Part shown: in pieces, positions 3,747-51,338 of the stretch
Layout of the letters: each line of letters opens with the position of its first letter
How positions within the stretch are numbered: position 1 is the stretch's first letter
Origin: Rhabdaerophilum calidifontis
GTDB taxonomy: Bacteria; Pseudomonadota; Alphaproteobacteria; Rhizobiales; Beijerinckiaceae
Assembly (NCBI RefSeq): GCF_008641065.1
Contig: NZ_VTRS01000001.1
Span: 868,001 to 932,000, forward strand
DNA: 64,000 nucleotides
Reading direction: 5' to 3'
The notes under the pieces: model-generated
What the model was told of the DNA's origin: nothing
The model's database searches: none
What the model saw: the letters and a program-made list of their open reading frames with translations, nothing else
Program-made: the position numbers and the translations under genes

Positions 3747-3749
3747 TCG

Positions 3750-4268: not shown

Positions 4269-4269
4269 G

Positions 4270-5589: not shown

Positions 5590-5596
5590 GGTTTCA

Positions 5597-5920
5597 ATGC
5601 CCGGAATCGTCGATCTCGACCGTGATGCCGTGAAGGCGGGGCTCGCGGACGGCACCTTGATCCTCGTCGATGTGCGCGAGCCGCACGAATTCGCCGCCGG
5701 GCATATTCCGGGATCGCTCTCGCTGCCGCTGTCGCGGTTCGCGCCTTCCGAGCTGCCGCGGCTCCCGGGGCGGCGGGTGGTGCTCTCCTGCGTCGCGGGC
5801 GTACGATCCGCGCAGGCGCTGCTGATCGCCCAGGCGGCGGGAATCGATGTCGACAGCCATTATGGCGGCGGCTTCAAGGATTGGCTGATGGCCGGCGAGG
5901 CGGTCGAACAGGGCGGCTGA
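5597..5920 (+). CDS. Rhodanese-like domain protein
   Basis: A 107-residue single-domain rhodanese, cytosolic, predicted to carry sulfur as a persulfide. The VDVREPHEFAAGHIPG block (residues 25-39) is the N-terminal rhodanese signature. Cys65 in SCVAGVRS is the active-site cysteine with its arginine-containing loop. The C-terminus ends GGFKDWLMAG, as in PspE/GlpE-type proteins. It lies 7 bases after the TRAP large permease, so it may be the last gene of that operon, or a link to the molybdenum enzyme next door, where sulfur transfer to the cofactor is needed. Neither role can be proved here. Confidence 0.86.
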   Translation: MPGIVDLDRDAVKAGLADGTLILVDVREPHEFAAGHIPGSLSLPLSRFAPSELPRLPGRRVVLSCVAGVRSAQALLIAQAAGIDVDSHYGGGFKDWLMAGEAVEQGG

Positions 5921-6058
5921 GGGTGTGCCGGCGGCGCCACCGCGGCGGATTGTTCGCGCGATCCGCGGATTGACGGGTTGAAAGCCCGGGCCGGGGCCTT
6001 ATCCTCCCCCGGAAGCGCGGGTCTCCGCCACCCCCACCTCTCGATCGGGCTTTCCATC

Positions 6059-8353: not shown

Positions 8354-8391
8354 CAGGGAGATTGCGGTTCACGCGATCGTGATGGGAATGC

Positions 8392-8413
8392 TGCCTTGCG
8401 CGGACGCAAGGCA
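8392..8413. terminator. Hairpin between molybdenum subunit and cytochrome c' genes
   Basis: A perfect 9-bp stem (TGCCTTGCG, loop CGGA, CGCAAGGCA) about 40 bases after the molybdenum-subunit stop. There is no following T-run, so it is a weak terminator at best and may be an mRNA-processing or stabilising hairpin. A second, smaller hairpin (CCTGGAA-TCC-TTCCAGG) follows at 8440-8456. Confidence 0.4.
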
Positions 8414-8513
8414 CATGATCTCGACAGGTTGCGTTTCTGCCTGGAATCCTTCCAGGGTGAATCATCCGCCGGGCAGGACATGCGTCCCCGGCCTAGGGAA
8501 AGGACCCGATCCC

Positions 8514-8939
8514 ATGCGTCGTGCCGCCATTTTCGCTATGCTCGTTGCTCTCGGCGCCGGGGCGGCTTTCGCCCAGGATGCCATCGCGACCCGCAAGGCC
8601 CAAATGAAGGAGCTCGGCGCCGCCGCCGGCCCGCTCGCCAAGATGCTGCGGGGCGAGGACGGGTTCGATCTCGCGCGGGTCAAGACCTCGCTCGAAACCT
8701 TCGTCCGGGTCGCCAAGGCGCAGGGCGCGCTCTATCCCGACAATTCGAAGGACGGTGACACCAAGGCGCAGCCAGCGATCTGGGAGAACAGGGCGAAATT
8801 CAACAATCTTCTCGCCAAGTTCGAGGCGGAATCAGGGGCCGCGCTCGCCGCGATCCGGGATGAGGCGAGCTTCAAGGCCGAGATCGGCAAGGTGCTCGGC
8901 AATTGTGGCGGCTGCCACACGGATTTCCGCGCGAAATGA
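8514..8939 (+). CDS. Cytochrome c' (class II cytochrome c)
   Basis: A 141-residue exported haem protein. The signal peptide is residues 1-20 (MRRAAIFAML... AFA-QD). The single haem site is CGGCH at residues 131-135, close to the C-terminus, which defines class II cytochromes and cytochrome c'. The rest is helical, as in the four-helix bundle of this family. AGGGAAAGG precedes the ATG. It sits between the molybdenum hydroxylase and a dihaem cytochrome, so it could be an electron carrier for that enzyme; cytochromes c' also bind NO, so a protective role is possible. Confidence 0.88.
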   Translation: MRRAAIFAMLVALGAGAAFAQDAIATRKAQMKELGAAAGPLAKMLRGEDGFDLARVKTSLETFVRVAKAQGALYPDNSKDGDTKAQPAIWENRAKFNNLLAKFEAESGAALAAIRDEASFKAEIGKVLGNCGGCHTDFRAK

Positions 8940-9012
8940 ACCGGTCCCCGCAAGGGGGCAGGGTGCAGGCCGGGCATGCCGCCCGGCCTTTCCGGATCCC
9001 GGGGGAGGCGCG

Positions 9013-9948
9013 ATGCGCAAGCTTGTGGGCTGGTTGGGAGGGCTCGCCGCTCTCGGTCTGGTCGGCTTCCTGGTCGTGACGGACCCGGCCTTCCATCGGG
9101 TGCTTTTCGGCATCGGCCTGCCGCTGCCGGCGGCGCCGCCCGATCTCGCCAATGGCCGGGCGATGTTCTTCGCCGGCGGCTGTGCCTCCTGCCACGCGAC
9201 TCCCGGCCATGCGGATCGGCTGCGGCTCGGCGGCGGGCTGGCGCTGCATTCGCCGTTCGGGACATTCCACGCCCCCAATCTCTCGCCGCATCCCGCAGAC
9301 GGGATCGGGGGCTGGACGCTCGACCAGTTCATCCGCGCCATGCGCGAGGGCGTGGCACCGGACGGACGGCATTACTACCCCGCCTTCCCCTATGCGAGCT
9401 ACCAGCGCATGGGGGCGAAGGATCTCGCCGACCTGTTCGCCTTCCTGAAATCGCTGGCGCCGGTCGCGGGACGCGCGCCGGAACACGCGCTTGCCTTTCC
9501 GTTCCAGATCCGGCGGCTGGTGGGGGGCTGGAAGCTTCTCTACCTCGATGGGCGGGTGTTTGTGCCCGATCCCGGCCGCAGCGCGGCCTGGAACCGTGGC
9601 GCCTATCTGGTCGAGGGGCCGGGCCATTGCGCCGAATGCCATTCCCCGCGCGATGCGCTTGGCGGCATCGTGCAGGCGCGGCGCTATGCCGGCGGGCCCG
9701 ATCCCGAGAATCCGCGCAAGACGGTGCCGAACATCACCCCGCATCGCGACGGGATCGGCGATTGGTCGAAGGGCGACCACGCACAATTCCTCAAGACCGG
9801 CGAGAGCCCGGCCTTCGTCACCGCCGGCGGCTCCATGGCATCGGTGATCCGCAACATGGCGGAATTGTCCGATGACGACCGCGCCGCGATGGCGGAATTT
9901 CTCGTCACGCTGCCGCCGATCGCGGGGAAACTGCAGCCGGCGCGCTGA
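9013..9948 (+). CDS. Dihaem c-type cytochrome
   Basis: A 311-residue protein with an N-terminal membrane anchor or signal (residues 4-24) and two cytochrome c domains. Haem motifs are CASCH at 57-61 and CAECH at 206-210. It resembles the cytochrome subunits that accept electrons from periplasmic alcohol, aldehyde or nicotinate-type dehydrogenases. GGGGGAGGCGCG precedes the ATG. Placement after the CoxL-like gene suggests it carries electrons from that enzyme to the respiratory chain, in place of the missing FAD and Fe-S subunits; this pairing is inferred from order only. Confidence 0.88.
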   Translation: MRKLVGWLGGLAALGLVGFLVVTDPAFHRVLFGIGLPLPAAPPDLANGRAMFFAGGCASCHATPGHADRLRLGGGLALHSPFGTFHAPNLSPHPADGIGGWTLDQFIRAMREGVAPDGRHYYPAFPYASYQRMGAKDLADLFAFLKSLAPVAGRAPEHALAFPFQIRRLVGGWKLLYLDGRVFVPDPGRSAAWNRGAYLVEGPGHCAECHSPRDALGGIVQARRYAGGPDPENPRKTVPNITPHRDGIGDWSKGDHAQFLKTGESPAFVTAGGSMASVIRNMAELSDDDRAAMAEFLVTLPPIAGKLQPAR

Positions 9949-9951
9949 GCG

Positions 9952-10593
9952 TCATTCCATCACCGCCGCCTTGAGGATCACGACCATGATCGCATGGCCC
10001 GGCTCGCTGCCGACGCAGCGGATGATGTGCTGGCGATCGCAGCGGTAGCGCAGCGATTCCCCCGCGCGGGCGATCTTGGTCACGCCGCCGACCTCGACCT
10101 CGAACATGCCGGCGATCACCGAGAGGCTCTCGACCGAGCCGCGCTGATGCGCGTCGGAATCGAGCGCGCCGCCCGGCTCGGCCTGCACATCATACCATTG
10201 CAGCCATTCGACCGTCTTGAGCCAGCCGACGATGGCGAGGCGCATCTTGCCGTCGTCCGAGACGAGGATCGGGGTGTCGGCGCGGGTCGCGTGCTCGATG
10301 AAGGGCTCCTCGTCCGACGAGACCAGGAAGCGCTCGATCGAGACATCGAGCGCCTGCGAGAGCCGCCAGATGGTGGCGAGCGTCGGGTTGGTCTCGTTGC
10401 GCTCGATCTGGCTGATGATCGATTTCGCGACGCCCGATTGCTCGGCGAGTTCGGAGAGCGAGAGGTTGTAGGCCTTGCGCAGGCGCTGGATCGTCTTGCC
10501 GAGCTGGCCGGAAAGCGCCATGGCGCCGGCTTCGAGCTCGCGCGGCTTGTCCTTGTCCTGCATGGGTGGGTGCGCGTCCGTTTCGCCGGCCAA
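9952..10593 (-). CDS. XRE-family regulator with cupin domain
   Basis: A 213-residue DNA-binding protein. An XRE helix-turn-helix occupies about residues 33-87 (LSELAEQSGVAKSIISQIE is the recognition region), and a small cupin barrel fills about 135-205. This architecture is typical of repressors that sense a small metabolite (PuuR / SutR relatives). The longest frame starts at TTG; an in-frame ATG 30 bases further in (MQDKDK) is an equally good start, and neither has a strong ribosome site. It lies 75 bases downstream of the orphan TRAP binding protein in the same direction and convergent with the dihaem cytochrome gene, so its target is not clear. Confidence 0.87.
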   Translation of the reverse strand: MAGETDAHPPMQDKDKPRELEAGAMALSGQLGKTIQRLRKAYNLSLSELAEQSGVAKSIISQIERNETNPTLATIWRLSQALDVSIERFLVSSDEEPFIEHATRADTPILVSDDGKMRLAIVGWLKTVEWLQWYDVQAEPGGALDSDAHQRGSVESLSVIAGMFEVEVGGVTKIARAGESLRYRCDRQHIIRCVGSEPGHAIMVVILKAAVME

Positions 10594-10668
10594 ATGTTCG
10601 GATGATCGAACCCTCTTTTGCCCCAGCGCGAAGGGCGAGGCAAGCGTTCGCGCATCATCCCCCGGCGC

Positions 10669-11736
10669 TCATTCCGGCTGGAGCGCGAGCTGCCCGGCGA
10701 GCGTGACGCGCCGCCAGGCTGCGTTGCGCGCGCGATGCGCCTCCAGCGAGGCGAGGATGCGGCCGCCGAGCGGGGAGCGCGCGGCGAGTTCGCGCAGGAT
10801 CTCGTCGGCGGCGCGCCGGGCCGCGGCGAGAATGTCCGGCGGCAGGCGGCGCAATTGCACGCGGTGCTGGCCGACGAGTTCGAGCAGCGCGGCGGCGTTT
10901 TCCGCCTGCGCCTCGGCGAGCCCGCGCGCATGCGCCTCCAGCCCCACGGCCTCAAGGATCGCCCGGAACTCCTCCGGCAACGCCTCCCAGGCCGCAAGAT
11001 GGATGATCGCTTCCGCCGTGCCGTTCGGCTTGTTGAAGCCCGGCGCGTAGTAATAGGGGGCGGTCTTGTGGAGGCCGAGCGGCAAATCGTTGACCGGCGA
11101 GAGGAATTCCACCGCGTCGATCGTGCCGGAGGAGAGCGAGATCAGCAGATCGCCCGGCGCGATGGCGAGCGGCACGGCGCCGAGCCGCGCCCAGACCTCG
11201 CTGCCGAGGCCGACCGCGCGGATCTTCAGGCCGCGCACCTGATCGAGCCCGGCGATCTCGCGCTTGAACCAGCCGGCCATGCAGGGGCCGGTATTGCCCG
11301 CGACGAGCGGCTTCACCCCGAAGCCGCGGTAGAGTTCGTCCCACAGCGCCTGGCCGCCGCCGCGTTCGAGCCAGGCTTGATGCTCGATCGGGTCGGGGCC
11401 GAAGGGGATCGTGGTGAAGAAGTTCGTGGCCGGGTTCTTGCCCGTCCAGTAGAGGCTTGCGGTGTGCCCCATCTCGACCGTTCCGGTCGACACGGCATCC
11501 ATCACCTGGAGCGCGGGGACGATCTCCCCGGCGCCGAAGAGCTGGATCTCGAACCGCCCGCCGGACAATTCCCGCACGCGGCGGGCAATATGGGCGGCGG
11601 CCACGCCGGGGCCGGGCAGGTTCTTGGGCCAGGATGTCGCCATGCGCCAGCGGATCGGCGCCGCGGCATGGATCGCGGGTGCCGCAAGCGGCGCCGCAGC
11701 GAGGGCGAGGAGGGTCGAACGGCGCGTCGGGATCAT
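10669..11736 (-). CDS. Orphan TRAP binding protein, TakP-like
   Basis: A 355-residue periplasmic binding protein with signal MIPTRRSTLLALAAAPLAAP and cleavage near AIHA-AA. The blocks WRMATSWPKNLPGPG, FTTIPFGPDP, AGNTGPCMAGWF and FKREIAGLDQVRGLKIR match TakP-type TRAP proteins that bind 2-oxo acids. It begins 4 bases after the thiD stop, so it appears to be the last gene of the thiM-thiE-thiD operon under the TPP riboswitch. No small or large TRAP permease gene is nearby. Longer upstream starts would run into thiD and are rejected. Its ligand is unknown; a link to thiamine or its precursors would be new and is only suggested by position. Confidence 0.85.
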   Translation of the reverse strand: MIPTRRSTLLALAAAPLAAPAIHAAAPIRWRMATSWPKNLPGPGVAAAHIARRVRELSGGRFEIQLFGAGEIVPALQVMDAVSTGTVEMGHTASLYWTGKNPATNFFTTIPFGPDPIEHQAWLERGGGQALWDELYRGFGVKPLVAGNTGPCMAGWFKREIAGLDQVRGLKIRAVGLGSEVWARLGAVPLAIAPGDLLISLSSGTIDAVEFLSPVNDLPLGLHKTAPYYYAPGFNKPNGTAEAIIHLAAWEALPEEFRAILEAVGLEAHARGLAEAQAENAAALLELVGQHRVQLRRLPPDILAAARRAADEILRELAARSPLGGRILASLEAHRARNAAWRRVTLAGQLALQPE

Positions 11737-39458: not shown

Positions 39459-39902
39459 TCAGGACGCCGCGGCGACCGGTGCCTGGCTGGCGGGCAATCG
39501 CGGCGGCATCTGTTCCGATGACGGGGCGCCGAGCGGACCAGCATTGCCGCGCAGACCGGCGGCCACATGCTGGTTGATCTCGATCAGCAGATCGAGCTTG
39601 GTCACATCCGGCTCGAACAGGATCCGCATGCACTGGTTGATGACGAAGCGGGAGAGACCGATGATGTTCTTGCGCATTTCCGGCGGCATCGGACAATCGT
39701 CCTCGGTCGCCGATGCCAGAAAAATCGCCCAGACCTTGCGGTTATGCGCAAGCGGATCCTCGATCACGGCGATGCTCGGATCCCAGTTCTCCTTCAGCGC
39801 CTGGAGCCGGCTCGCGGCCTTCAGGAGCGCGCGGGCCTCGAGTTCACGCTGGCTGAGCGCGAGGGACTGGGTTTTCGCGTAGGCTTGAATTCCCGGCTGC
39901 AT
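39459..39902 (-). CDS. flaF: Flagellin regulator / secretion chaperone FlaF
   Basis: A 147-residue protein of the alphaproteobacterial FlaF family. The N-terminus MQPGIQAYAKTQ and the block KVWAIFLASATEDDCPMPPEMRKNIIGLS are family features. In Caulobacter FlaF works with FlbT to balance flagellin translation and assists flagellin export. The ATG is placed after TTGAGC; the gene begins inside the end of flbT (59-base overlap), so the two are coupled. The C-terminal 30 residues are Pro/Ala-rich and variable. Confidence 0.92.
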   Translation of the reverse strand: MQPGIQAYAKTQSLALSQRELEARALLKAASRLQALKENWDPSIAVIEDPLAHNRKVWAIFLASATEDDCPMPPEMRKNIIGLSRFVINQCMRILFEPDVTKLDLLIEINQHVAAGLRGNAGPLGAPSSEQMPPRLPASQAPVAAAS

Positions 39903-40278
39903 GCTCAAGTAACTTCCTCTCGTACGCCAGAAGCTGTTTCGCTTCCTTGAGGGCTTTGTAGAATTCTGCGTTTAAGATATGGTTGTGGATGGCCATAAGA
40001 ATTCTGGTTGAGCTGGGCACGGCCTCCTGAAAATCTGACATTAATTTGTTGTATGTCCCGATATTGTCGGCAACGCGTCCGTCAATATACATCAATTGTA
40101 TCGCGAGATAGATCAGCTTCGCCGGCGTATCCGCCGATTTCGGGCTGAGAATGTCCTTCTCGCGCAGGATGGGGGCGTGGCCCTCGATGACGAGACTGGT
40201 CCGCTGGTCACCATTCCTCACCACGGCGGTGCCGATGATGATCCGTTCGTTGGGCTTCAACTCAACCTTGAGGGCCAC
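39844..40278 (-). CDS. flbT: Flagellin mRNA regulator FlbT
   Basis: A 144-residue protein; FlbT binds flagellin mRNA leaders in Caulobacter and acts as a negative or positive regulator of flagellin translation. Family blocks: LKPNERIIIGTAVVRNG near the start, IDGRVADNIGTYNKLMSDFQEAVPS in the middle (key parts DNIGTYN), and YKALKEAKQLLAYE. The start is GTG behind a perfect AAGGAGG site. It lies at the end of the flagellin-sugar island and overlaps flaF. Confidence 0.94.
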   Translation of the reverse strand: MALKVELKPNERIIIGTAVVRNGDQRTSLVIEGHAPILREKDILSPKSADTPAKLIYLAIQLMYIDGRVADNIGTYNKLMSDFQEAVPSSTRILMAIHNHILNAEFYKALKEAKQLLAYERKLLEHAAGNSSLRENPVPRAQPA

Positions 40279-40446: not shown

Positions 40447-41226
40447 TTACGCAACCCGTTTCAGGAAGCCGTCGGCGCAGACCGAGACCATCAGCTTGCC
40501 CTCGATCGCTTTGTCGATCGCGAATTCGGGATGCCGCGTGAGGTATTCGCGCAGAGCGGTCTTCGGATTGTTTCCGGGCGCCCAGGGCCGGTCGGGGAAG
40601 AGGTCGGCCGGCATATCCTCGACGAAGCTGTCGAACACCACGCAATAGCTGTCGCGGCTCACCAGCGGCGCATAGGCTTCGAGTTCGGCCAGGACATGGG
40701 CATGGGTGTGCATCGAATCGAGGAAGACCATCACGCGGCGGTGCCCTTGCGCGGCGGCCCTGACGGTCTCGACCGTTTCCGGGGCGATGCTCGAGCCTTC
40801 GACCAGCGTCAGCAGCGGGCGCAGGGGATGCGCGTCGAGCGCGGCGCGGTTATGCGGCCGGATGTCGATATCGATGCCGATGACCTTGCGCGTCGATTGG
40901 CGGGGATCGAGCGGTGCGCCCGTCTCCATCGCCTCGCAATAATCGAGCATGGCGAGGATCGAGGCGGAGAGGATCAGCGAGCCGCCATGCGCGATGCCGG
41001 TCTCGATCACGAGATCTGGCTTCACGGTCCAGATCAGCTCCTGGACCGCCCACATATCCTGCGGATACTGGATTATCGGCCGACCGAGCCAGTCGAAATT
41101 GTAGACGTATTTCTTCCGCATCGAGGCTTCGAGGAAATCGCGCGAGAGCCTGCGGAAACCGGCATCCTCGGCATAGGCGGCAAGGCGCTCCTCACGCTCG
41201 GCGGCGAATTGCTTGACCGGGTCCAT
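40447..41226 (-). CDS. CmcI-like methyltransferase (cephalosporin hydroxylase / rhamnosyl O-methyltransferase family)
   Basis: A 259-residue Rossmann-fold protein. The block DLVIETGIAHGGSLILSAS is the SAM-binding region (about residues 72-90), IGIDIDIRPHNR the acidic loop, and VMVFLDSMHTHAHVLAELEAY the metal/substrate region (key parts LDSMHTH). Family members methylate sugar hydroxyls (rhamnosyl O-methyltransferase) or antibiotics. It is the last gene of the sugar operon, 12 bases after the epimerase stop, and so probably O-methylates the same sugar. It contains a long N-terminal arm (1-60). Confidence 0.85.
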   Translation of the reverse strand: MDPVKQFAAEREERLAAYAEDAGFRRLSRDFLEASMRKKYVYNFDWLGRPIIQYPQDMWAVQELIWTVKPDLVIETGIAHGGSLILSASILAMLDYCEAMETGAPLDPRQSTRKVIGIDIDIRPHNRAALDAHPLRPLLTLVEGSSIAPETVETVRAAAQGHRRVMVFLDSMHTHAHVLAELEAYAPLVSRDSYCVVFDSFVEDMPADLFPDRPWAPGNNPKTALREYLTRHPEFAIDKAIEGKLMVSVCADGFLKRVA

Positions 41227-41238
41227 CCGATCCTCCGT

Positions 41239-42075
41239 TCACTGGGTTTTCGGGGTCGTCAGGCGCGAATCGGTGTTGATCCCGCCGAAGACGGATTTGA
41301 GCACGTCGCGCGGGGCGAAGCGGAATTCCTGGCGGATGCGGCCGATATCGATCGCCGGAAATTCGACGCGCGGGGCGTTGGGCATGACCTCGATGCGGCA
41401 GCCGGTCTTGGCCGCGAGCCAGTAGGTCCATTCGCGATGGCTGATCTTGCGGCCGCTCGCGAGGTTGTAGAGGCGGTGGCGACCTTGGGTCGCGATTTCC
41501 GGCAGCAGCGTCAGCACATCCTCGATATGGACGTAATCCTTCGCCGAATCCGGCGCGGTGCGCAGCGTCACCGTTCCGGTCCGCGCCTCGCGGATCAGCG
41601 AGGGCAGGAAGTTCTGCGAATCGGGATCGTCGGCGCCGATCACGTTGGAGAGCCGCACCGCGCGGATCGTGCCGCGCCCGGCATGCAGGCACAGGCTCTC
41701 GCCCATCAGCTTCGACAGGTCGTAGAGATCCGAAGCGGCATTGGGGTTGACGAGGAGGGCGCTGTCCTCGTCCACGCGCGAATCCGCCGGCAGGCCGCCA
41801 TAGACCCGGGTCGAGGAGAGATAGGTCAGGCTCTCGAACTCCGCGCGCGCGATGAGTTCGCGCAGCACGCAGACATGCGCCTCGACCGTTTCGAGCGGCC
41901 GGGTCCGGAAATCGGCGGTGATACCGATCGCATAGATCGCATGCCCGAGGGGGCGGGCGTGGATGCCGGGATCGCCGCGTGTGGGCGCATAGACCTCGTG
42001 CCCGGCCGTGGCCAGCCGCGAGACCAGCCGCCGGCCGATCGTGCCCGAGGCACCGAGGACGGTGAACATCGTCAT
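41239..42075 (-). CDS. NAD-dependent sugar epimerase/dehydratase or 4-ketoreductase
   Basis: A 278-residue extended SDR enzyme. The nucleotide-binding motif GASGTIG is at residues 8-14, the active-site tyrosine-lysine pair is YDLSK near 145-149, and STRVYGG supplies the catalytic Ser/Thr. In this operon it is likely to reduce the 4-keto group left by the dehydratase, or to epimerise the sugar. Its start overlaps the acyltransferase stop (ATGA). No paired dehydratase for the 3-deoxy pathway (RfbH) is present. Confidence 0.85.
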   Translation of the reverse strand: MTMFTVLGASGTIGRRLVSRLATAGHEVYAPTRGDPGIHARPLGHAIYAIGITADFRTRPLETVEAHVCVLRELIARAEFESLTYLSSTRVYGGLPADSRVDEDSALLVNPNAASDLYDLSKLMGESLCLHAGRGTIRAVRLSNVIGADDPDSQNFLPSLIREARTGTVTLRTAPDSAKDYVHIEDVLTLLPEIATQGRHRLYNLASGRKISHREWTYWLAAKTGCRIEVMPNAPRVEFPAIDIGRIRQEFRFAPRDVLKSVFGGINTDSRLTTPKTQ

Positions 42076-42560
42076 TGCCGCCGCCCGATCTCGCGCAGCG
42101 GCGTCCCGGCATAGACGGTATAGGCTGCCAGTTCGCCCTTGATCACCGATCCGGCGCCGACGACGGAACCCCGGCGCAGGATGGCGCCGTCAAGCAGCAC
42201 GCAATTGGCGCCGATCCAGACATCGTCCTCCACGATGATGCCACCCTTGCCCGGCAGGAACCCCTGTTCGCGGATCAGCCGCGCGGCATCCCTGTAGGCG
42301 TGGTTGACCGGCGCGAAGGTGCAGTTCGCCGCGATGGCCACGGAATTGCCGATGCGGATTCCCTGGCCCGTATAGAGCACACAGCCGGAATTGATGGTCA
42401 CATGCTCGCCGATGACGAGATCGCCCATGCCGCCGGCCGGCTTGATCTTCACGAAACTGTCGATCACCGAATGCGCGCCGATCTCGATCCGCGTGCCGCG
42501 GGTCGAATCCTCGATATCGGCGAGCGCCGAGACGCGCGCGGTCTCGTGGATGACGATCAC
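42072..42560 (-). CDS. Hexapeptide-repeat acyltransferase
   Basis: A 162-residue left-handed beta-helix protein with hexapeptide turns such as IEIGAH, VIGEHV, IRIGNS and VWIGAN, and the catalytic histidine region APVNHAYRD near 85-93. Such enzymes add acetyl or other acyl groups to sugars. The start is GTG overlapping the methyltransferase stop (GTGA). A deoxysugar O- or N-acyl step in the same pathway is expected. Confidence 0.88.
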   Translation of the reverse strand: MIVIHETARVSALADIEDSTRGTRIEIGAHSVIDSFVKIKPAGGMGDLVIGEHVTINSGCVLYTGQGIRIGNSVAIAANCTFAPVNHAYRDAARLIREQGFLPGKGGIIVEDDVWIGANCVLLDGAILRRGSVVGAGSVIKGELAAYTVYAGTPLREIGRRQ

Positions 42561-43783
42561 AGAACCTCCAGCTTCGGCACGGCGACCACGAATTTCGCGC
42601 CCCAGCCCCGGGCTTCCTCCAGCTGCCCCATCACCTCGGCCTTCAGGTTCCAGGGCAGGATGACGATGCGGTCCGGCCGGTCGGCAAGCAGATGCGCCTC
42701 GCCGACGATCGGGATGCGGCTTCCGGGCATGAATTTTCCCTGCTTCGCCGGGTTCCTGTCCACCACATAGGGGAGGAGGTCGGGGCGGATGCCGGCGAAG
42801 TTCATTAGCGTGTTGCCCTTGGCGGCCGCGCCATAGGCGCCGACCCGCAGGCCCTGCCGCTTCGCCTCGATCAGGAAGGCGACGAAATCGTCCTTGACCC
42901 GCTCCGCCGCGCGCTGGAAGCCGGCGTAGTAATCCGGGCCGGCCATGCCGAGCCCCGCCTCGCGCGCCAGCATCGCCGTCACCGCTTCGGAAACTGCGCG
43001 CCGCCCGGTATCGGCGCGCTGCGCGAAGACGCGGAGCGAGCCGCCATGGGTCGGCAATTCCTCGACATCGAAGACGGCGAGGCCGTTCCCGGCGAAGATC
43101 CGGCGGACTGCCGTGAGCGAGAGATACGAATAATGCTCGTGATAGGCGGTATCGAACTGGTTCTCGGCGACCATCCGCATCAGATGCGGGAATTCGAAGG
43201 TCGCGACGCCCTCCGGCTTGAGCAGCGCCGCAAAGCCGCCGACGAAATCGTTGATATCCGGCACATGGGCGAGCACGTTGTTGGCGGCGGTGAGATCCGC
43301 CGCCTTGCCCGCCGCCGCGAGCCGGCGCCCGAGCGCGACGCCGAAGAATTCCTCGATCGTCTCGATGCCCTTGGCGCGTGCGGCCGCTGCGGTGCTGCGC
43401 GTCGGTTCGATGCCGGTGCAGGGAATGCCGGCCGCCTGCACGAATTGCAGGAGATAGCCGTCATTCGAGGCGACCTCGACGACATGGCTCGCCGGCCCGA
43501 GGCCGAGCCTGGCGATCATCTGTTCGACATAGGCTTGCGAATGCGCGAGCCACGAGGCCGAGAAGGAGGAGAAATAGGCATAATCCTCGGTGAACAGCGC
43601 TTCGCGGCCGGCATAATCCTCGGTCTGCACCAGCCAGCAGCGCTCGCAGGCCATCAGCCGCAGCGGGAACCAGGTTTCCGGCGCGCGCAGCGCCTCGGCG
43701 CCGAGATAGGCGTTCGAGGGCGGCGCGGCGCCGAGATCGAGGAAGGTGAGGCGCAGCGGTGCCCCGCAATGCCGGCATGTCAC
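42557..43783 (-). CDS. Sugar C-methyltransferase (TylC3/NovU-like)
   Basis: A 408-residue three-domain enzyme. The N-terminus holds a zinc-binding region with CRHCGAPL (3-10) and MACERCWLVQ (about 44-53). The SAM domain contains VVEVASNDGYLLQF (about 97-110) and EYTPLAHV-type metal region seen as NNVLAHVPDIN. The C-terminal domain (about 260-400) is the C-methyltransferase C-terminal fold (VGAYGAAAKGNTLMNF, PGSRIPIV). Such enzymes methylate C-3 of 4-keto-6-deoxy sugars. The GTG at the chosen start has a perfect AAGGAG 7 bases upstream; longer starts are unlikely. Confidence 0.9.
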   Translation of the reverse strand: MTCRHCGAPLRLTFLDLGAAPPSNAYLGAEALRAPETWFPLRLMACERCWLVQTEDYAGREALFTEDYAYFSSFSASWLAHSQAYVEQMIARLGLGPASHVVEVASNDGYLLQFVQAAGIPCTGIEPTRSTAAAARAKGIETIEEFFGVALGRRLAAAGKAADLTAANNVLAHVPDINDFVGGFAALLKPEGVATFEFPHLMRMVAENQFDTAYHEHYSYLSLTAVRRIFAGNGLAVFDVEELPTHGGSLRVFAQRADTGRRAVSEAVTAMLAREAGLGMAGPDYYAGFQRAAERVKDDFVAFLIEAKRQGLRVGAYGAAAKGNTLMNFAGIRPDLLPYVVDRNPAKQGKFMPGSRIPIVGEAHLLADRPDRIVILPWNLKAEVMGQLEEARGWGAKFVVAVPKLEVL

Positions 43784-43886
43784 GGCAAATCTCCTTGCAT
43801 GGTCCTCGGCATGGTCTTCGGCGCATTCTCCAGCCCTCATAGGGTGATTCTCGGCGCGAAAGCAGCCTTTCCTGCATTGCTCGCGG

Positions 43887-44963
43887 CTATCGGCCATCCT
43901 CGAACGCCGCAATCTCGGCCGAGCAGAGGGCGGCGGCATCGGCGCCGCCCGCCTCTTCCCGATACCAGCGGATCGTGCGTTCGACGCTCTCGCGCAGGGC
44001 CCAGCGCGGGCCGAGGCCGAGTGCGGTGCGCACCTTGGCGACTTCGAGCGCAAGCCAGTTGGCCTCGTGCGGGCCGCGCGAGCCGTCGCCATAGCGGACC
44101 TCGCCGCCGCCCCAGATGCTCCGGGCGAGGTCCACCACGTCGCGGACGGTCGAGGCCTCATGGGTGGGGGGGCCGAAATTGTAGGCGCCGGCCAGGGCCG
44201 GCAGGCCCGCCATCGCCTCGGCAAGGACAAGATAGCCGCAGAGCGGTTCGAGCACGTGCTGCCAGGGTCGGATCGCGGCCGGTCGGCGGATCTCGAGCAC
44301 GTCCCCCGCCAGCCAGGCGCGGACCGCGTCCGGGATCAGCCGGTCCTCGGCCCAATCGCCGCCGCCAATCACGTTGCCGGCGCGGGCGCTCGCCACCGCC
44401 ATTCCCTGCGCGCGCAGGAAGGAATCGCGGTAGCTCGCGATGACGATCTCGCTCGCGGCCTTGGAGGCGGAATAGGGATCGTGCCCGCCGAGCGCGTCGT
44501 CCTCGCGGTAGGGATAGGGCCATTCGCGGTTGTGATAGACCTTGTCGGTGGTGATCATCACCGCGACACGCGCGCTTGCGAGATCGCGCAGCGCATCCAG
44601 CAGATGCGCGGTGCCCATCACATTGGCGGCGAAGGTCGCGACCGGCTCGCGATAGCTCGCCCGGACGAGCGGCTGCGCGGCGAGATGGAAGACAATCTCC
44701 GGCGCCGCTTCCCGCACCAGGCGGGCGAGGCCGGCGCCGTCGCGGATGTCGTGGAAATGGCTCGCCGCGCAATGCCCGGCGATTCCGGCCCGTTCGAACA
44801 GGCTCGGCGTGGTGTTGGGCGGCAGGGCGATGCCGGTCACCGCCGCGCCCATCCGCGCGAGCCAGAGCGTCAGCCAGCCGCCCTTGAACCCGGTATGACC
44901 TGTGACGAGGACATTCCGGCCGCGCCAGAACGCGGGATCGGGGCGTCTCACCAGATTTTCCAT
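43887..44963 (-). CDS. rfbG: CDP-glucose 4,6-dehydratase (RfbG)
   Basis: A 358-residue extended [13 protein letters not shown] (residues 22-31) is the NAD-binding block typical of CDP-glucose dehydratases, [11 protein letters not shown] contains the active-site Asp/Lys, and [11 protein letters not shown] is the Tyr-Lys catalytic pair. Product is CDP-4-keto-6-deoxyglucose. It starts inside the end of rfbF (16-base overlap) with GGGAAGG upstream. A 103-base gap separates it from the C-methyltransferase. Confidence 0.94.
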
Positions 44964-45718
44964 GGCGCCTTCCCGGAGGCCCAGAGATCCTCGAGGAGGT
45001 TCTTCTCGCGCAAGGTATCCATCGGCTGCCAGAACCCGTCATGGACGAAGGCATGCAACTCGCCTTCGGCCGCGAGGCTCTTCATCGGCTCCTGCTCCCA
45101 GCTCGTCGCGTCGCCCTCGATGCGGTCGATCACTTTCGGGGAGAGGACGAAGAAGCCGCCATTAATGAAACCGCCTTCGCCGCGCGGCTTCTCGACGAAG
45201 CCCTTCACCGCGTCGCCCTTCATGGAAAGCACGCCGAACCGTCCCGGCGGCAGCACCGCCGTGACCGTGGCGAGCCGGCCATGCGCCTTGTGGAAGGCGA
45301 TGGCGGCGGTGATGTCGACATTCGAGACGCCGTCGCCATAGGTGAAGCAGAAGGCTTCCTCGTCGCGCAGGTATTTCCCGACGCGCTTGAGCCGGCCGCC
45401 GGTCATCGTGTCCTCGCCGGTATCGATCAGCGTCACCCGCCAGGGTTCGGCCTGCTCGCGATGCACCTCCATGCGGTTCTTCGTCATGTCGAAGGTGATG
45501 TCCGACATGTGCAGGAAGTAGTTCGCGAAATATTCCTTGATGACATAGCCCTTGTATCCGCAGCAGATGATGAATTCATTCACCCCGTGCGCGGAATACA
45601 TCTTCATGATGTGCCAGAGGATCGGCTTGCCGCCGATCTCGATCATCGGCTTGGGCCGCAGATGCGTTTCTTCCGAAATGCGGGTTCCGAGCCCGCCGGC
45701 GAGGATGACGGCTTTCAT
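44948..45718 (-). CDS. rfbF: Glucose-1-phosphate cytidylyltransferase (RfbF)
   Basis: A 256-residue nucleotidyltransferase making CDP-glucose from CTP and glucose-1-phosphate. The nucleotide loop [19 protein letters not shown] (residues 7-25) and [15 protein letters not shown] are RfbF signatures, and [11 protein letters not shown] carries the metal-binding aspartate. Its ATG overlaps the stop of the TPR-glycosyltransferase by one base (TGATG), tying sugar supply to transfer. The frame is open upstream but inside that gene. Confidence 0.95.
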
Positions 45719-47679
45719 CAGCGTTGCTCGTTGTAGCGCCGGACCATCTCCATATAGCCCGCCTCGAGCGCGCGGGTGCGCCCCTGGAAGTCGAAGAAGG
45801 GGCTGTTCTCCATCATCGGCCGCAGCTTCTGGCGGATCTCGGCGAGGGCGGGAATATCGGATGCCATCTGAACCGCCTTCTCGACGAATTGCTCCTCGGT
45901 GTCGACAACCCAATCGCCGAGGCCGAGCGGAGACAGGACCATGTCGGAAAGCCGGCCAACCGAGACGCGGTCGCGCTTGGAGATCACGGGCACGCCCGAG
46001 AACAGCGCCTCGAACGTCGTCGTGCCGGCATTGTGCGGCCAGCAATCAAGCGCGATGTCGAACTCGTGGTAGCCGTTCCAGTGTTCGAGCGTGCTGGTGA
46101 GCTCCACCCTGTCGCGGCTATAGCCGAGGCTTTCCAGGCGCCGGTAGAAGCGCTCGATCGTTTCTGGATCCTCGAAGGTTTTCTGGTCGAAGCGGAGTTT
46201 GCTGCCCGGCACGCGGTCGAGGATCTGTTTCCAGACCGAGAGCAGGCGGTTGTTCAGGCGGATCATCCGCGTCATCGTGCCGAAGGTGACGTAGCCCTTG
46301 CGCATGGCGGGCGGCTCGCAGACGTCAGGGGTGCGGTGACGCGGCGGGTTGTAAGCATAGACCGGCGCTTCGATTTGGAGAAGCTTTTCCGAGAAGTACG
46401 GCTCGCTGCCCGTCGGCGTGAAGTTCTTGTCACCGATGAAATAGTCGATCTCGTCGAGACCGGTCGTATAGCCAAATCCGAGATAGGTCGCCTGGATCGG
46501 CGCGGGCTTCATCGAAAGCGCAGAAAGGCGGTTGCCGAAGGTATGCCCTGCAAGATCTACCACGATATCGATGCCATCGTTATAGATCTGCTCCGCCATT
46601 TCTTCGTCATTCATCTGGGTAACATCGACCCATTTGTCGAAATACCGTCTGAGATACATTGTGTGCTCGTCCGGCTTGATGACGTTGGCGTAGGCGACGA
46701 GCTCGAATCGCGACCTATTGTGGTTGCGGAGAATCGGGTCAATAAAGAAGGAAACCACGTGCGTGTAAAGATCCGGCGATGAATAGGCGAGTCTGATGCG
46801 GCGATTTTCTATTTTTGCACGCTTTTCGTGATTATAGATTTTGGAGTTTTTGGATATAACCTTTGCGTGCTTGCGGTATTCTTGAAACACGTCTTCAGAA
46901 GTCTTGCGGTCGTCGTAGTTGATGGTGAAGAGATAGGCTGTTCCGGTAACGACGTTATTCGGGTTGATGGCGCGTGATTTCTCGTAATACGCCATCGCCT
47001 CTTCCAGCTCGCCCAGCACCACATGGGTGGTCGCAACAGCATTGAGCGCATCGTCCGAGGCGGCCTTGCTGGCTTCTACTGCTGCGTAGGCGTGCTCCAG
47101 GGCCTTCACATATTTCATCGTTTCCTGGTAGGAGCTGCACAGCATCTGATGTACGAGCGCATTATCTGGCTGCTTCTCGACGATGCTCTTGAGCATCTCG
47201 ATGGATTCCTCGACATTCATCTTCTTGAGGCGACGCACGTTTGCGAAATTCATTCGTGCGGTTGTGTTGCGAGGATCGAGCGTCATCGCCCGCCAGAATT
47301 GCTGTTCGGCCTCGTCGAGCTTGTTGTCATGGACGAGCAATACGCCATTGTTGACGATCGCGTCCGGATAATGCGGCTCGATCGCGAGGGCGGCGTCGTT
47401 GAATTCCTTCGCTTCCTCCCAGTGTTTCTCGGCGAGGCGGATATTCGCGAGCGTCGTGAGCGCGGAGAAGTTCTGCGGATTGGCACGCACCGCGCGCCGG
47501 AGCATCTGCTCGGCGATCGCAACCTGCCCGTCCTTCTTCACGAGAACCGCGAGATTGCCGAGCACCTCCGATGCATCCGGGTGGCGCCGCAGGAGCCGCT
47601 TGTAGAGATCCTTGGCCTCATCGGGCCGGCCATTGAGCTGGGCGTCGACGGCCTTCGCGAACATCACGGCGGATTGCAT
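45718..47679 (-). CDS. TPR-GT41 protein O-glycosyltransferase (OGT / FlmG-like), probable flagellin glycosyltransferase
   Basis: A 653-residue cytosolic enzyme. Residues about 4-245 hold six to seven TPR-like helical repeats. Residues about 295-640 form a GT41 (OGT/SPINDLY) GT-B domain, with an ungapped match to human OGT blocks: [13 protein letters not shown] (His307 where OGT has its active-site histidine), [29 protein letters not shown] and [14 protein letters not shown]. The position of the OGT nucleotide lysine (Lys842) is Arg474. Caulobacter FlmG has the same TPR-plus-GT layout and glycosylates flagellin. GGAGC lies 6 bases before the chosen ATG. It sits between two flagellin genes and its own sugar pathway. 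Confidence 0.88.
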
Positions 47680-47836
47680 TCTGTGCTCCGGAACCTTGAT
47701 CTGGGTTCTGCTCCGCCGGACGGCGGAGACGGCTTCTGCCTGCCGCGGCGCGTATCGTTCCCGGAAACCCGGCATGGATGCCGGATTCGGAAGCCGCCGC
47801 CTCCGCGCGGTCCTGAGCAAGATTTGGTATAGGAAG

Positions 47837-47849
47837 ATGGTTAACAAAC
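47837..47849 (-). promoter_or_regulatory. CtrA-like TTAACCAT box upstream of the glycosyltransferase
   Basis: On the minus strand the site reads GTTTGTTAACCAT, about 160 bases before the ATG. TTAACCAT is the CtrA half-site found in many alphaproteobacteria. The 11-mer GTTTGTTAACC recurs exactly upstream of flagellin 2. Confidence 0.4.
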
Positions 47850-47892
47850 GCGAAATGGCAGCTGGTTCCGCCCCGAGCCGTGCCCCATAACG

Positions 47893-47925
47893 AAAAAGGC
47901 GGCGGGTTGCCCCGCCGCCTCGTTT
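47893..47925. terminator. Bidirectional-looking terminator after flagellin 1
   Basis: Stem GGCGGCGGG, loop TTGC, CCCGCCGCC with an A-run on the left and GTTTTT on the right. Read on the minus strand it lies about 30 bases after the flagellin stop and is followed by TTTTT. Confidence 0.8.
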
Positions 47926-47946
47926 TTCGTTCCGCGTTCCGGCCGA

Positions 47947-49530
47947 TCAGCCGAGCAGGCGGAGGAGCGACTGCGCATTCGCAGAGCCGGCCGAGAAGGC
48001 CTGGACCGCGAACTGCTGCTGAGTCTGGAGCGCCGTCAGCTTCGCCGATTCCTCGGCGATGTCGGCGCTGACGAGGTCGTCGCCCAGCGTCTTCATGTTG
48101 GTCGCGAACTCGGCGTTGATGTCGTAGCGATCCTGAATGAAGGACGCATAGTTGCCGAACTGCGCCTGGAGCGTGTTGATAATCGACTGCGCCGTCTGAA
48201 CCTCACCCAGCGCCGTCTGGATGTTGCCGGTGGTGGTCCAAGCCGTGCCGAGCGTGGTCAGGGCGAGGTTGCCGGTCACGCTCGTGTTCACGCCGTTGAT
48301 CTGGATCGGGTTCGCAGCGAACTCGTTCAGGATCACGTTCATGCCTTCGCCGCGGAGCAGGTTGCGGCCGGCCTGGACAACGTTGTTGTTGATCACGTTC
48401 GTGATTTCAGTCTTGTAGGACTCATACTGCGTGCCGAGCTCGAGACGCCGCGCGTTGTTCGTGGAACCCAGGATCGGGTTGCCCTGAACGACCGGGACGC
48501 CCGAGGCCGCGTTGAAGCGCGCCGCGCCGGAGACCGAGTCGAACGTGCCGGTGCCGTTGAGGACCGTAACCGCGTTGCCAGACAGGTTGCGCAGGCCGAT
48601 GCGGAACTGACCCGTGGCGGACTGCACGAACTCGGCCTTGACGCCCGCATTGAGCGCGTTGATCTCGGAGATGACCGCGTCGAGGTTCTTCACGGTCGTG
48701 GTGGACCAGGTGCGAGCCACGCCGTCCGCGCCGAGGAAGGTCAGCGAGGAGCCGGCGGCGACCGACGAACCGGCGAAGGTCGAGGCCGTCCGAAGCATGC
48801 CGCCGGTGCCGAAGCGCAGACCCATCGGGTTCGAGCCGCCGAAGCCGGTCGGCATCGAGGTGCCGTTGACGAACCTCGAGGCGGCGTAGGTGCCATCGTA
48901 GCCCGAGTTGATGCCGGTCAGGTCATCGACGACCTGCTGCGAGGACGAACCGTCGATGGTGAAGCCGGTCTTGCCGTCGGTCGATTCCAGAACCAGGCGG
49001 CTGCCGGTGCCGTTGACCTCGAAGCGCATCGTGACGCCGATATTGGCGTTGTTGAGCGCCTGGGCAACCTGGCCCCAGGTCGTCGCGCTGGTCGCGCCCG
49101 AGAAAGTATAGGTGAAGTTCTTGCCGTTGTCGGAGGTGATCGACAGGCGGTGGCCGGTCGAGGCGCCGACGACCGAGGAGGTCTCGGCGAGGTTGGCGGT
49201 CGGGGTTGCGGCGACGGTGGTCTGCGAGCCGGCGTTCAGCGCATCGGTCGCCATATCGTTCATCTGCGAAAGCAGATTGCGGATCTGCTTCAGCGCGAGA
49301 TCGGTCGACTCGAGGGTCTTCAGCGCGGTCGAGATGTTGTTGTTGACGCGGTTGATGTTCTTGGCACGCGCCAGCATCGTCTCCGACATGCCGTACTTCG
49401 TGGCGTCATCCGCGGCGCCGAAGATCGACTTGCCGGTGGCAACGCGCTTCTGGGAGATCTGGAAAAGCTTGTTGGTCTGCTGGAGAACGGTGACGTTGGC
49501 CGCGGTGGCGGCATTGAAAACGACAGACAT
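47947..49530 (-). CDS. fliC: Flagellin (copy 1)
   Basis: A 527-residue filament subunit. The N-terminal D0/D1 helices (about 1-150: SQKRVATGKSIFGAADDATKY, NINRVNNNISTALKTLES) and C-terminal helices (about 430-527, ending QQQFAVQAFSAGSANAQSLLRLLG) are flagellin signatures. The central 150-430 region is rich in Thr, Ser, Gly and Asn, and is the expected surface for O-glycosylation. It is longer than Caulobacter flagellins (about 270). The start is preceded by AGAAGG; the leader has an AT-rich upstream region. Confidence 0.94.
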   Translation of the reverse strand: MSVVFNAATAANVTVLQQTNKLFQISQKRVATGKSIFGAADDATKYGMSETMLARAKNINRVNNNISTALKTLESTDLALKQIRNLLSQMNDMATDALNAGSQTTVAATPTANLAETSSVVGASTGHRLSITSDNGKNFTYTFSGATSATTWGQVAQALNNANIGVTMRFEVNGTGSRLVLESTDGKTGFTIDGSSSQQVVDDLTGINSGYDGTYAASRFVNGTSMPTGFGGSNPMGLRFGTGGMLRTASTFAGSSVAAGSSLTFLGADGVARTWSTTTVKNLDAVISEINALNAGVKAEFVQSATGQFRIGLRNLSGNAVTVLNGTGTFDSVSGAARFNAASGVPVVQGNPILGSTNNARRLELGTQYESYKTEITNVINNNVVQAGRNLLRGEGMNVILNEFAANPIQINGVNTSVTGNLALTTLGTAWTTTGNIQTALGEVQTAQSIINTLQAQFGNYASFIQDRYDINAEFATNMKTLGDDLVSADIAEESAKLTALQTQQQFAVQAFSAGSANAQSLLRLLG

Positions 49531-49727
49531 GGTTGCACCTTCTGTTGCAAGGGATCGGGCCATCCTGGCCCGTAAACGTTCAGAGCCGCTCCGTGCTGCT
49601 CGTCACGTCCCGCAAGGTGCCGTCGCAGATATAAATGAGAGTTAAATGTTGCTCGCAGGCTGAGGCAGCCTGAAATCAAGGTTAATTGATTCAAAATATG
49701 TATCGTTAATGAAAAATAAAACAAAAA

Positions 49728-49743
49728 AGAGGCCGAAGCCTCT
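49728..49743 (-). terminator. Terminator after flagellin 2
   Basis: Minus-strand hairpin AGAGGC-TTCG-GCCTCT followed by a T-run (TTTTTTG...), about 24 bases after the flagellin 2 stop: a clear rho-independent terminator. Confidence 0.9.
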
Positions 49744-49766
49744 CTTTTTATTCTGATGGTGCCTGC

Positions 49767-51338
49767 TTACTGCCCGAGCAGGCGCAGCATCGATTGGGCG
49801 TTCTGGTTGCTGATCGCGATCGCCTGAACCGCGAAATCCTGACGGGTCCGAAGTGCGGTCAGCTTCGCGCTTTCCTCAGTCACATCCGCCGCCACCAGTT
49901 CGTCGCCCTGAGTTTTCGCCTCGGTCTGGTAGGCCTTGTTCAGGTCGTAGCGCGAGCGGATGTAATTGTTGAAGGTTGCGAACTGGGCCTGGAGTTCGAG
50001 CAGGATCTTCTGCGCCTCGCGCGCTTGCTGCGCCGAGATCTGGATGTTCTGGTCGTTGACCCAGGATGCGCCGGCCTGCGCCATCGTCAGCGTTCCGGCG
50101 GCGGTAACGAGTACGCCGGCGATCTTCAGCGGCGTGCCGGCAAATTCGGAGAGCGGCACGCTGATATTCTCGCCCTGGAGCAGGTTCCGCCCTTTCGGCA
50201 CCGGATTATTGGCGACGAGCTGGTCGAGATTCTCGATGATCGCGTCATATTGCTGGCCATAGGCCAGACGGAGCGCGTTGTTCGGTGCCAGCGGCGCCGC
50301 GAAACCGGTGTTGATTCCACCCATGCCGAGCGCGCCGGCAGGCGCGAAATCGCCCGACGCGGCGACAATCTTCATATTGCCGCCATTCATGTTGCGCAGG
50401 CGGATCTGCATCGGGCCGCCGGCGCCGCCGGTCTGGTTCACGAGTTCGGCGCGCGTTCCCGCCCCCATTGCCGTGACATCCGCGATGAATTGCGCGACCG
50501 TCGTCGCGACGCCGTAATTCAGCGTACGGAACTGGCCGTTTCCGTCTTCGAAGACGATGGAAGAGCCGGCCGCGATCGGCGTGGCAAGGGTCACGCCAGC
50601 GCCCGTGCCGGTCAGTTGTCCGCCGAAGGCCACCGTGAATCCGGTCTCTCCGGCAGCGGGTGCGGCGACGCCGTTGGCGAAAAGGTTGTTGGGATTGAAG
50701 ACCTGACCGGTCGGGCTCGTCAGGCCAGCAAGATCATCCATCGCGTTCTGGTCGCTGATGGCGTCGAAGGTGAAATCCTCGCCATTCGTCGAGCGGAAGC
50801 GGAGATTGGTCTGCCCGGCGACGGTCGACGGGATGAACTCGGCGATCACGCCGATATTGGCGGCGTTGAGGGCATTGGCGATCTCGCCCCAGGTCACGGA
50901 GAGCGAGTTGAACGTGTAGGTGAAATTCTTGCCGCCGTCGGAGGTGATCGAAAACCGTGAGCCGATCGAGACGCCGCTCACCACCGAGGTTTCGTCGAGA
51001 TTGGCGGTCGTGGCGGCGTTGCGGGTGCCGACGCCGCCCTCGTTCTGCGCCTTGCTGGCGAGATCGATCGCCGATTCGACGAGGCCGAGCATGCTCTTCA
51101 GCGTCTTGTCGGTGGTTTCGAGCGTCGCGAGGCCGACGGAGATGTTGTTGTTGATGTCCGAGAGCTGGCCCGAGCGGCCGAGCAGCGTCTCGCTGACCCG
51201 GTAGCGGGTGGTGTCGTCGGCGGCGGAGAAGATGCTCTTGCCGGAGGCGACCCGCTTCTGGGTGATGCCGAACAGCTCGTTCGTGCGGGTGAGGATCGAG
51301 ACACTGACGCTGGTCGCGTCGTTCATGAGGATGGACAT
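49767..51338 (-). CDS. fliC: Flagellin (copy 2)
   Basis: A 523-residue paralogue of the neighbouring flagellin. It shares ITQKRVASGKSIFSAADDTTRY near residue 25 and the C-terminal ESAKLTALRTRQDFAVQAIAISNQNAQSMLRLLG-type end, with a diverged central region. It has its own terminator downstream and an upstream region with TTAACC boxes, so it is an independent transcription unit rather than part of an operon with copy 1. Confidence 0.94.
   Translation of the reverse strand: MSILMNDATSVSVSILTRTNELFGITQKRVASGKSIFSAADDTTRYRVSETLLGRSGQLSDINNNISVGLATLETTDKTLKSMLGLVESAIDLASKAQNEGGVGTRNAATTANLDETSVVSGVSIGSRFSITSDGGKNFTYTFNSLSVTWGEIANALNAANIGVIAEFIPSTVAGQTNLRFRSTNGEDFTFDAISDQNAMDDLAGLTSPTGQVFNPNNLFANGVAAPAAGETGFTVAFGGQLTGTGAGVTLATPIAAGSSIVFEDGNGQFRTLNYGVATTVAQFIADVTAMGAGTRAELVNQTGGAGGPMQIRLRNMNGGNMKIVAASGDFAPAGALGMGGINTGFAAPLAPNNALRLAYGQQYDAIIENLDQLVANNPVPKGRNLLQGENISVPLSEFAGTPLKIAGVLVTAAGTLTMAQAGASWVNDQNIQISAQQAREAQKILLELQAQFATFNNYIRSRYDLNKAYQTEAKTQGDELVAADVTEESAKLTALRTRQDFAVQAIAISNQNAQSMLRLLGQ

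Follow-up and report, generated by a model that had tools for sequence, protein, structure and literature searches.

In Caulobacter, flagellin modification requires FlmG, which joins N-terminal TPRs to a C-terminal GT-B domain and belongs with a pseudaminic-type (nonulosonic) pathway, as set out in the accessible part of the report (PMC7591256). Here we describe a gene block of Rhabdaerophilum calidifontis, a flagellated alphaproteobacterium with a genome of 3.09 Mb (G000). The block lies in a 64,000-nucleotide stretch of contig NZ_VTRS01000001.1 (the window, to which positions refer unless another locus or contig is named) and combines flagellin genes, a TPR-bearing glycosyltransferase (GT) of family GT41 and genes for a CDP-sugar. 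The GT resembles FlmG, as the available text portrays it, in its TPR and GT-B layout, its alphaproteobacterial host and its flagellin linkage, the comparison being one of layout. However, the linked pathway would here derive from CDP-glucose, unlike the nonulosonic pathway of FlmG.

Flagellin islands of Enterobacteriaceae also carry GT41 genes beside flagellin and, in four strains (type 23), genes for CDP-4-keto-6-deoxyglucose, a genomic prediction in the sections available (PMC4875605). Our locus shares both features, whereas its 3-C-methyl set and the donor-site branch of its GT are not among the features found described in those sections (PMC4875605). In Clostridium butyricum, the CDP-paratose genes of a flagellar island are likewise predicted, in the accessible text, to supply flagellin glycosylation (PMC13317340), but that pathway is a 3,6-dideoxyhexose one (RfbH, RfbS) and not a C-methyl set. 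The term 'CDP' is absent from the main text, as far as it was obtainable, of a 2014 review of Gram-negative flagellar glycans (PMC3958885). Our literature search, beyond which most subscription journals lay, returned no report of a C-methyl set with GT41 and none on vinelose. The original prediction, made from the DNA of the window, had proposed CDP-sugars as a new donor class for GT41. This survives in part: no CDP-sugar donor is assigned to a GT41 enzyme in the literature found, but CDP-sugar genes and GT41 enzymes in flagellar islands had already been predicted in the available portions of two reports (PMC4875605, PMC13317340).

We consider it likely that the block encodes a cytoplasmic system for the O-glycosylation of flagellin with a CDP-activated 6-deoxy-3-C-methyl-hexose that probably bears O-methyl and O-acyl groups. 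RfbF would produce CDP-glucose and RfbG CDP-4-keto-6-deoxyglucose, after which a C-methyltransferase (CMT) would put a methyl group on C3, a short-chain dehydrogenase/reductase (SDR) would reduce C4, a CmcI-type enzyme would O-methylate, probably at O2, and a hexapeptide enzyme would O-acylate. The L configuration may be due to an RmlC-like epimerase from elsewhere in the genome. The TPR superhelix of the GT41 enzyme would hold flagellin, and the sugar would be moved from CDP to Ser/Thr before export. Here we infer in which order and at which positions the sugar is modified, which donor and acceptor are used, and when this happens. Azotobacter vinelandii is the source of CDP-vinelose, a 6-deoxy-3-C-methyl-2-O-methyl-hexose nucleotide, and the predicted sugar resembles it as a CDP-activated hexose of this kind, the gene set being found also in the genome that we take for A. 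vinelandii (G232, see below). As differences, the window has no adjacent epimerase gene, and its acyltransferase is unexplained by vinelose itself. The features of the block are as follows.

49767-51338, minus strand: flagellin FliC1 (523 amino acids), probable acceptor; PF00669 over its cut-off at 50994-51323 (C11:918994-919323)
47947-49530, minus strand: flagellin FliC2 (527 amino acids), probable acceptor; PF00669 over its cut-off at 49189-49515 (C11:917189-917515)
45718-47679, minus strand: TPR-GT41 glycosyltransferase, 653 amino acids, R-type donor site (R471, R474, D498, H549, G552); ATG start; PF13844 (E 1e-37) and TPRs
44948-45718, minus strand: rfbF, glucose-1-phosphate cytidylyltransferase; TIGR02623, 473 bits (cut-off 300); ATG taken from the translation
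43887-44963, minus strand: rfbG, CDP-glucose 4,6-dehydratase; TIGR02622, 466 bits (cut-off 278)
43784-43886, minus strand: 103-bp gap, the site of an RmlC-like epimerase gene (186 amino acids) in relatives (L092, L094, L095, L096)
42557-43783, minus strand: sugar 3-C-methyltransferase (CMT); PF08421 and PF08484; GTG at 43783 the likely start
42072-42560, minus strand: left-handed-beta-helix (hexapeptide) acyltransferase, probably an O-acetyltransferase; PF00132; hexapeptide acetyltransferases among the solved structures matched
41239-42075, minus strand: SDR, probable 4-ketoreductase; PF01370; weak match to GDP-6-deoxy-mannose reductase 6x3b
40447-41226, minus strand: CmcI/rhamnosyl-O-methyltransferase family, probable sugar O-methyltransferase; PF04989, 304 bits; weak match to CmcI 2bm8 (E 0.009)
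39844-40278, minus strand: flbT; NF009432, 162 bits
39459-39908, minus strand: flaF; NF009435, 101 bits

Pfam and NCBIfam thus give, in order on the minus strand, two flagellins, the TPR-GT41 gene (scanned with Pfam in a longer reading of 709 amino acids), rfbF, rfbG, CMT, acyltransferase, SDR, CmcI, flbT and flaF. These identities, and the placement between flagellin and flbT-flaF, agree with the original prediction, whose count of seven operon genes holds when the GT is included, the sugar genes numbering six. Its description of an overlapping operon fits four neighbouring pairs, namely GT/rfbF (1 bp), rfbF/rfbG (16 bp), CMT/acyltransferase (4 bp) and acyltransferase/SDR (4 bp), but not the three gaps of 103 bp (rfbG-CMT), 12 bp (SDR-CmcI) and 168 bp (CmcI-flbT). 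By eye, and unscored, a G+C-rich inverted repeat followed by a T-run is seen at about 47890-47922, between the second flagellin and the GT gene, and this terminator-like repeat suggests that the GT gene may open its own transcript. A third, shorter flagellin gene (402 amino acids) lies on contig C1 of the same genome (L071:10101-11309), where inspection by eye found no obvious flagellar neighbour in 20 kb.

The formation of CDP-4-keto-6-deoxyglucose by RfbF and RfbG is an established pathway, and in a profile search of the whole genome the window's rfbF and rfbG were each the one copy over cut-off. RfbG carries TDK and YSASK, which fit the [ST]DK..Yx3K elements given for CDP-glucose dehydratases in the accessible text of a published account (PMC8987622). 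For the CMT, the nearest solved structures are the D-mycarose 3-C-methyltransferase 4rv9 (E 2e-67) and the sugar 3-C-methyltransferase 5t64, and its YHEH segment, which we take to be catalytic, is kept in the alignment with solved 3-C-methyltransferases. 3-C-methylation by this enzyme family requires a 4-keto nucleotide sugar. RfbF, RfbG, a 3-C-methyltransferase, a 4-ketoreductase and an O-methyltransferase, as expected of a vinelose-type pathway, are all present, the exact steps of the SDR and CmcI enzymes being putative. The predicted product would therefore be a CDP-6-deoxy-3-C-methyl-hexose that bears a single O-methyl and a single O-acyl group, and the residue masses expected from elemental formulae are 146.06, 160.07 with the C-methyl group, 174.09 with a further O-methyl group and 216.10 with an acetyl group as well. 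No nonulosonic-pathway protein was found among the operon proteins scanned with Pfam and NCBIfam. The genome has no PF01973 match that would indicate Maf, although only archaea were among the four control genomes that did match, and bacterial Maf may thus escape the model.

The GT belongs to GT41 by its catalytic domain and TPR superhelix (PF13844, sequence match and fold). Arabidopsis SPINDLY is its nearest solved sequence (E 6e-66), and the AlphaFold model (pLDDT 94.3, pTM 0.89, from a 32-row alignment) finds its best fold match in the Protein Data Bank in SPINDLY 8dti_A (TM 0.83/0.86). In its own genome the GT query gave three matches; among the matches listed are the GT itself and a TPR-only match, and the third is weaker. 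SPINDLY is a GT41 O-fucosyltransferase that uses a GDP-sugar, and the available parts of two reports assign K665, an essential Lys, and N662 to the phosphates, K689 to guanine, H728 to base stacking, Y744 and T747 to the sugar and T748 and E752 to ribose (PMC9715652, PMC10027727); the Y744 position has been argued, in the accessible text of one of them, to govern donor choice in GT41 (PMC9715652). The window GT shares with SPINDLY the TPR and GT-B architecture and most ribose contacts but differs at K665 (R474), N662 (R471), K689 (D498), Y744 (H549) and T747 (G552), and its base-contact loop is shorter.

The first of these differences defines a branch. Loci for comparison came from one GTDB scan, of whose 494 confirmed stretches the best 80 were used, and from 101 genomes of the order, and were mapped with the window proteins. 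In an alignment of 148 GT41 domains (the window's and 147 fetched, GT matches below 80 bits excluded), sorted by the position of SPINDLY K665, 77 carry Arg (R-type, as R474 of the window) and 71 carry Lys (K-type), with no other residue found. Arg474, in place of the Lys that is essential in SPINDLY, is a branch-level substitution inside GT41, with no sign of another fold. Besides this residue, five more pocket features differ from SPINDLY together: R471 replaces N662 in 76/77 R-type domains (L159 keeps Asn yet is classed R-type), Asp or Asn at 498 replaces K689 in 74/77, H549 replaces Y744 in 73/77, G552 replaces T747 in 75/77, and the 524-541 segment that forms the base-contact loop has 18 residues in 70/77, against 21-23 in all 71 K-type domains. 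The contacts to ribose are largely conserved (T553 in 63/77, E557 in 70/77). A base and sugar pocket rebuilt on a retained nucleotide scaffold would fit a different NDP-sugar, and we propose CDP as its nucleotide because of the linked sugar genes. As separate observations, a very long open frame (4266 amino acids) with several GT41 matches occurs at L146:2-12799, and arrays of four or five GT41 matches per locus occur in L136 and L171.

A Beijerinckiaceae metagenome-assembled genome (MAG; L092) and three Methylobacterium MAGs (L094-L096, the last without the acyltransferase) carry the whole block in synteny, with protein identities of 55-86%. A part of it is found in the Hyphomicrobiales MAG L093, whose flagellar locus holds only GT, rfbF, acyltransferase and CmcI; matches to rfbG, CMT and SDR and an epimerase-like open reading frame (ORF; by eye) lie together in that organism at a separate locus (L194), so the pathway can be split. 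Rearranged forms are found also in beta- and gammaproteobacteria. The seven-gene sugar set that includes the epimerase, with its order changed or partly changed, occurs in Achromobacter (L102, L109, L140), Undibacterium (L130, L134) and Maritalea (L135), and GT-rfbF-rfbG-CMT stands between FlgK and flagellin in Pseudomonas (L097, L106, L108) and Atopomonas (L112). Overall, 27 loci of alpha-, beta- and gammaproteobacteria have an rfbF gene no more than 2 kb downstream of GT41, 26 of them with R-type domains only and one (L144) with both types. In the 26 of these loci that could be scored (rfbF of L055 is cut by a contig end), rfbG is found in 25, the epimerase in 24, CMT in 22, CmcI in 19, SDR in 14 and the acyltransferase in 12.

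A flagellin-family ORF, detected with a hidden Markov model that was built from flagellins and also finds FlgL, is present in the fetched flanks of 21/27 GT41-rfbF loci versus 0/18 rfbG loci without a GT match (L072-L089); the stretches vary in length, and the control organisms were taken irrespective of flagella. Ten of the detected ORFs were named with NCBIfam (nine from eight GT41-rfbF loci, one from L186): flagellin was the best-scoring family for nine and FlgL for one, the first of the L097 pair, and the single flagellin-family ORF of L098 may be FlgL too. Sugar genes and a GT thus stand among flagellar genes, in the conserved linkage typical of a flagellin glycosylation island, at 21/27 loci, and this flagellin linkage is not chance. 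The survey of other genomes that the original prediction had named as a check bears out its expectation of such linkage. Its central proposal, that a CDP-derived deoxysugar is transferred to flagellin, gains from a dedicated CDP-sugar pathway, its rfbF and rfbG single-copy in this genome, that is linked across proteobacterial classes to a TPR-GT41 gene near flagellin, while the transfer itself stays putative on these genomic grounds.

R-type and K-type domains differ in their association with rfbF and rfbG. An rfbF gene follows on the same strand within 2 kb in 32/76 fetched R-type domains versus 1/71 K-type domains. At the genome level, searched for 78 of the 80 loci (L118 and L139 share genomes with L117 and L133), rfbG is over cut-off in 48/52 genomes with an R-type GT versus 11/25 with a K-type GT (Fisher p 8e-6), a value that ignores kinship; two of the four R-type genomes without rfbG (L124, L129) measure only 1.7 and 2.0 Mb.

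Several further observations weigh against our proposal. The GT loci were gathered with an R-type query, a choice that works in favour of near relatives sharing this operon. With the signature columns left out, a FastTree tree needs only 2 R/K changes, while GT-rfbF adjacency changes 12 times on it; the rfbF association is therefore a clade-level one, of a single branch. A test of independent pairs between Arg474 and the presence of rfbF/rfbG yielded only 2 pairs, too few for significance. The base-stacking position H728 is Pro in 48/77 R-type domains, the window keeping His. In a genome of the same genus (G082) the GT matches are weak (best E 6e-5) and no rfbG is over cut-off, which suggests a patchy distribution in the genus. 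No epimerase matched in the window at E 1e-3, where an L sugar would lead one to expect such a gene in the cluster. The genome has two PF00908 genes outside the window, one on C18 with rmlA/rmlB-like neighbours (by eye) and one on C13 without such neighbours, the latter encoding a protein that shares 50% identity with the G232 epimerase across 158 residues. The epimerases of L092 and L094-L096, sited between rfbG and CMT, are 60-61% identical to the same G232 protein. Either the C13 epimerase serves the pathway or the sugar retains the D configuration. The genome also holds two NeuB genes on contig C17, at about 28-54 kb (L177, L178), in a seemingly large polysaccharide locus (by eye), and with them a different donor is possible.

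The family of the genome that contains L108 provided a further comparison. Among its 398 genomes, the Fe-only nitrogenase model finds 7 at E <=1e-100, and 4 pass the cut-off. In G232 there are two such matches, the second below cut-off and taken as the vanadium enzyme, and we infer that this genome is A. vinelandii. It has one rfbG, and the same gene set stands beside flagellin, with identities to the window proteins of 79% (rfbF), 72% (rfbG), 72% (CMT), 78% (acyltransferase), 53% (SDR) and 61% (CmcI), together with an RmlC-like epimerase. The locus also holds flagellin, TylF- and PhyH-family genes, FlaG, a sigma factor and a TPR-GT41-GT2 fusion next to flagellin, in which the GT41 and GT2 domains follow the TPRs in one 1257-amino-acid protein (L187:136-3909). 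In a second genome, G194, the genes near GT41 and flagellin include rfbF, rfbG, an epimerase gene, CMT and a CmcI-like gene; no rfbG match was obtained in the five that remain of the seven. In both G232 and G194, however, the single GT-domain match beside the CDP-sugar set and flagellin is K-type, which tells against our view of the donor site: Arg474 is not needed for the association with CDP-sugar genes, and we rejected it as a strict marker of CDP use. The GT2 half of the G232 fusion could be the CDP-sugar user there. The gene set of G232 therefore supports a vinelose-type sugar and its putative flagellar use, not Arg474 as a requirement.

The association of rfbF and rfbG with other glycans has also to be considered. 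These genes are best known from O-antigen pathways, and they might serve lipopolysaccharide (LPS) or another surface glycan while the GT adds a different sugar to flagellin, for example a nonulosonic acid as in the FlmG system. Consistent with this, among the 20 rfbG-positive genomes in the 101 of the order, rfbG is GT-adjacent only in G000 and G093 in the stretches inspected (G072 is not counted: a contig end truncates its rfbF, and it has no rfbG above the cut-off), and the two NeuB genes could supply such a sugar from their apparent polysaccharide locus. We nevertheless hold this explanation to be unlikely. The NeuB genes are on another contig and none is in the operon, whereas GT, rfbF and rfbG overlap at their ends and stand together beside flagellar genes from alpha- to gammaproteobacteria, and the altered phosphate and base contacts of SPINDLY, with ribose contacts mostly kept, would suit an NDP-sugar. 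A plain LPS role of rfbFG is weakened by their single-copy status and flagellin linkage.

Two other explanations concern what the GT transfers or acts on. It could move an early intermediate, such as CDP-6-deoxyhexose or CDP-glucose, and the sugar could receive its methyl and acyl groups once bound to the protein; a late action is conceivable for CmcI-type and hexapeptide enzymes, and the flagellar locus of L093 retains only these two with GT and rfbF. Since that organism still has rfbG, CMT, SDR and the epimerase-like ORF at L194, and since 3-C-methylation needs a 4-keto nucleotide sugar, we give this possibility slightly less credence than the surface-glycan role. Still more improbable, in our view, is that the GT is a regulator or glycosylates FlbT, FlaF, hook proteins or another protein in place of flagellin. 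The window operon does end at flbT-flaF, and GT41 proteins such as OGT and SPINDLY act on many proteins, but the beta- and gammaproteobacterial GT-rfbF loci mostly adjoin flagellin or FlgL and mostly lack flbT/flaF matches (tblastn).

If flagellin O-glycosylation from a CDP-sugar is true, it would bring a new nucleotide class to the OGT/SPINDLY family, given that the literature found assigns no such donor to a GT41 enzyme, and it would provide a defined residue set for donor choice and a function for branched CDP-sugars. It would also place an unusual C-methyl sugar on the flagella of relatives of Methylobacterium, Achromobacter, Undibacterium, Pseudomonas and Azotobacter. We know of no role for branched CDP-sugars such as CDP-vinelose, an orphan metabolite. 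We offer, tentatively, the wider idea that one GT41 branch switched its donor site to CDP-sugars and that flagellin is O-glycosylated with a branched methylated 6-deoxyhexose whose donors are CDP-vinelose and, across Pseudomonadota, compounds related to it, which would explain this metabolite.

The GT41 proteins of Azospirillum plasmids (132 matching records) were considered as members of the system and set aside, no rfbF/rfbG annotation being found near the GT in the two regions inspected, for which the gene table is incomplete. Finally, L087 (G100; 5387-11128 and 2982-5312) carries the full seven-gene CDP-sugar set including the epimerase, with no GT41 match in 20 kb, beside an RTX-like repeat protein (by eye), and its sugar may be used on something besides flagellin.

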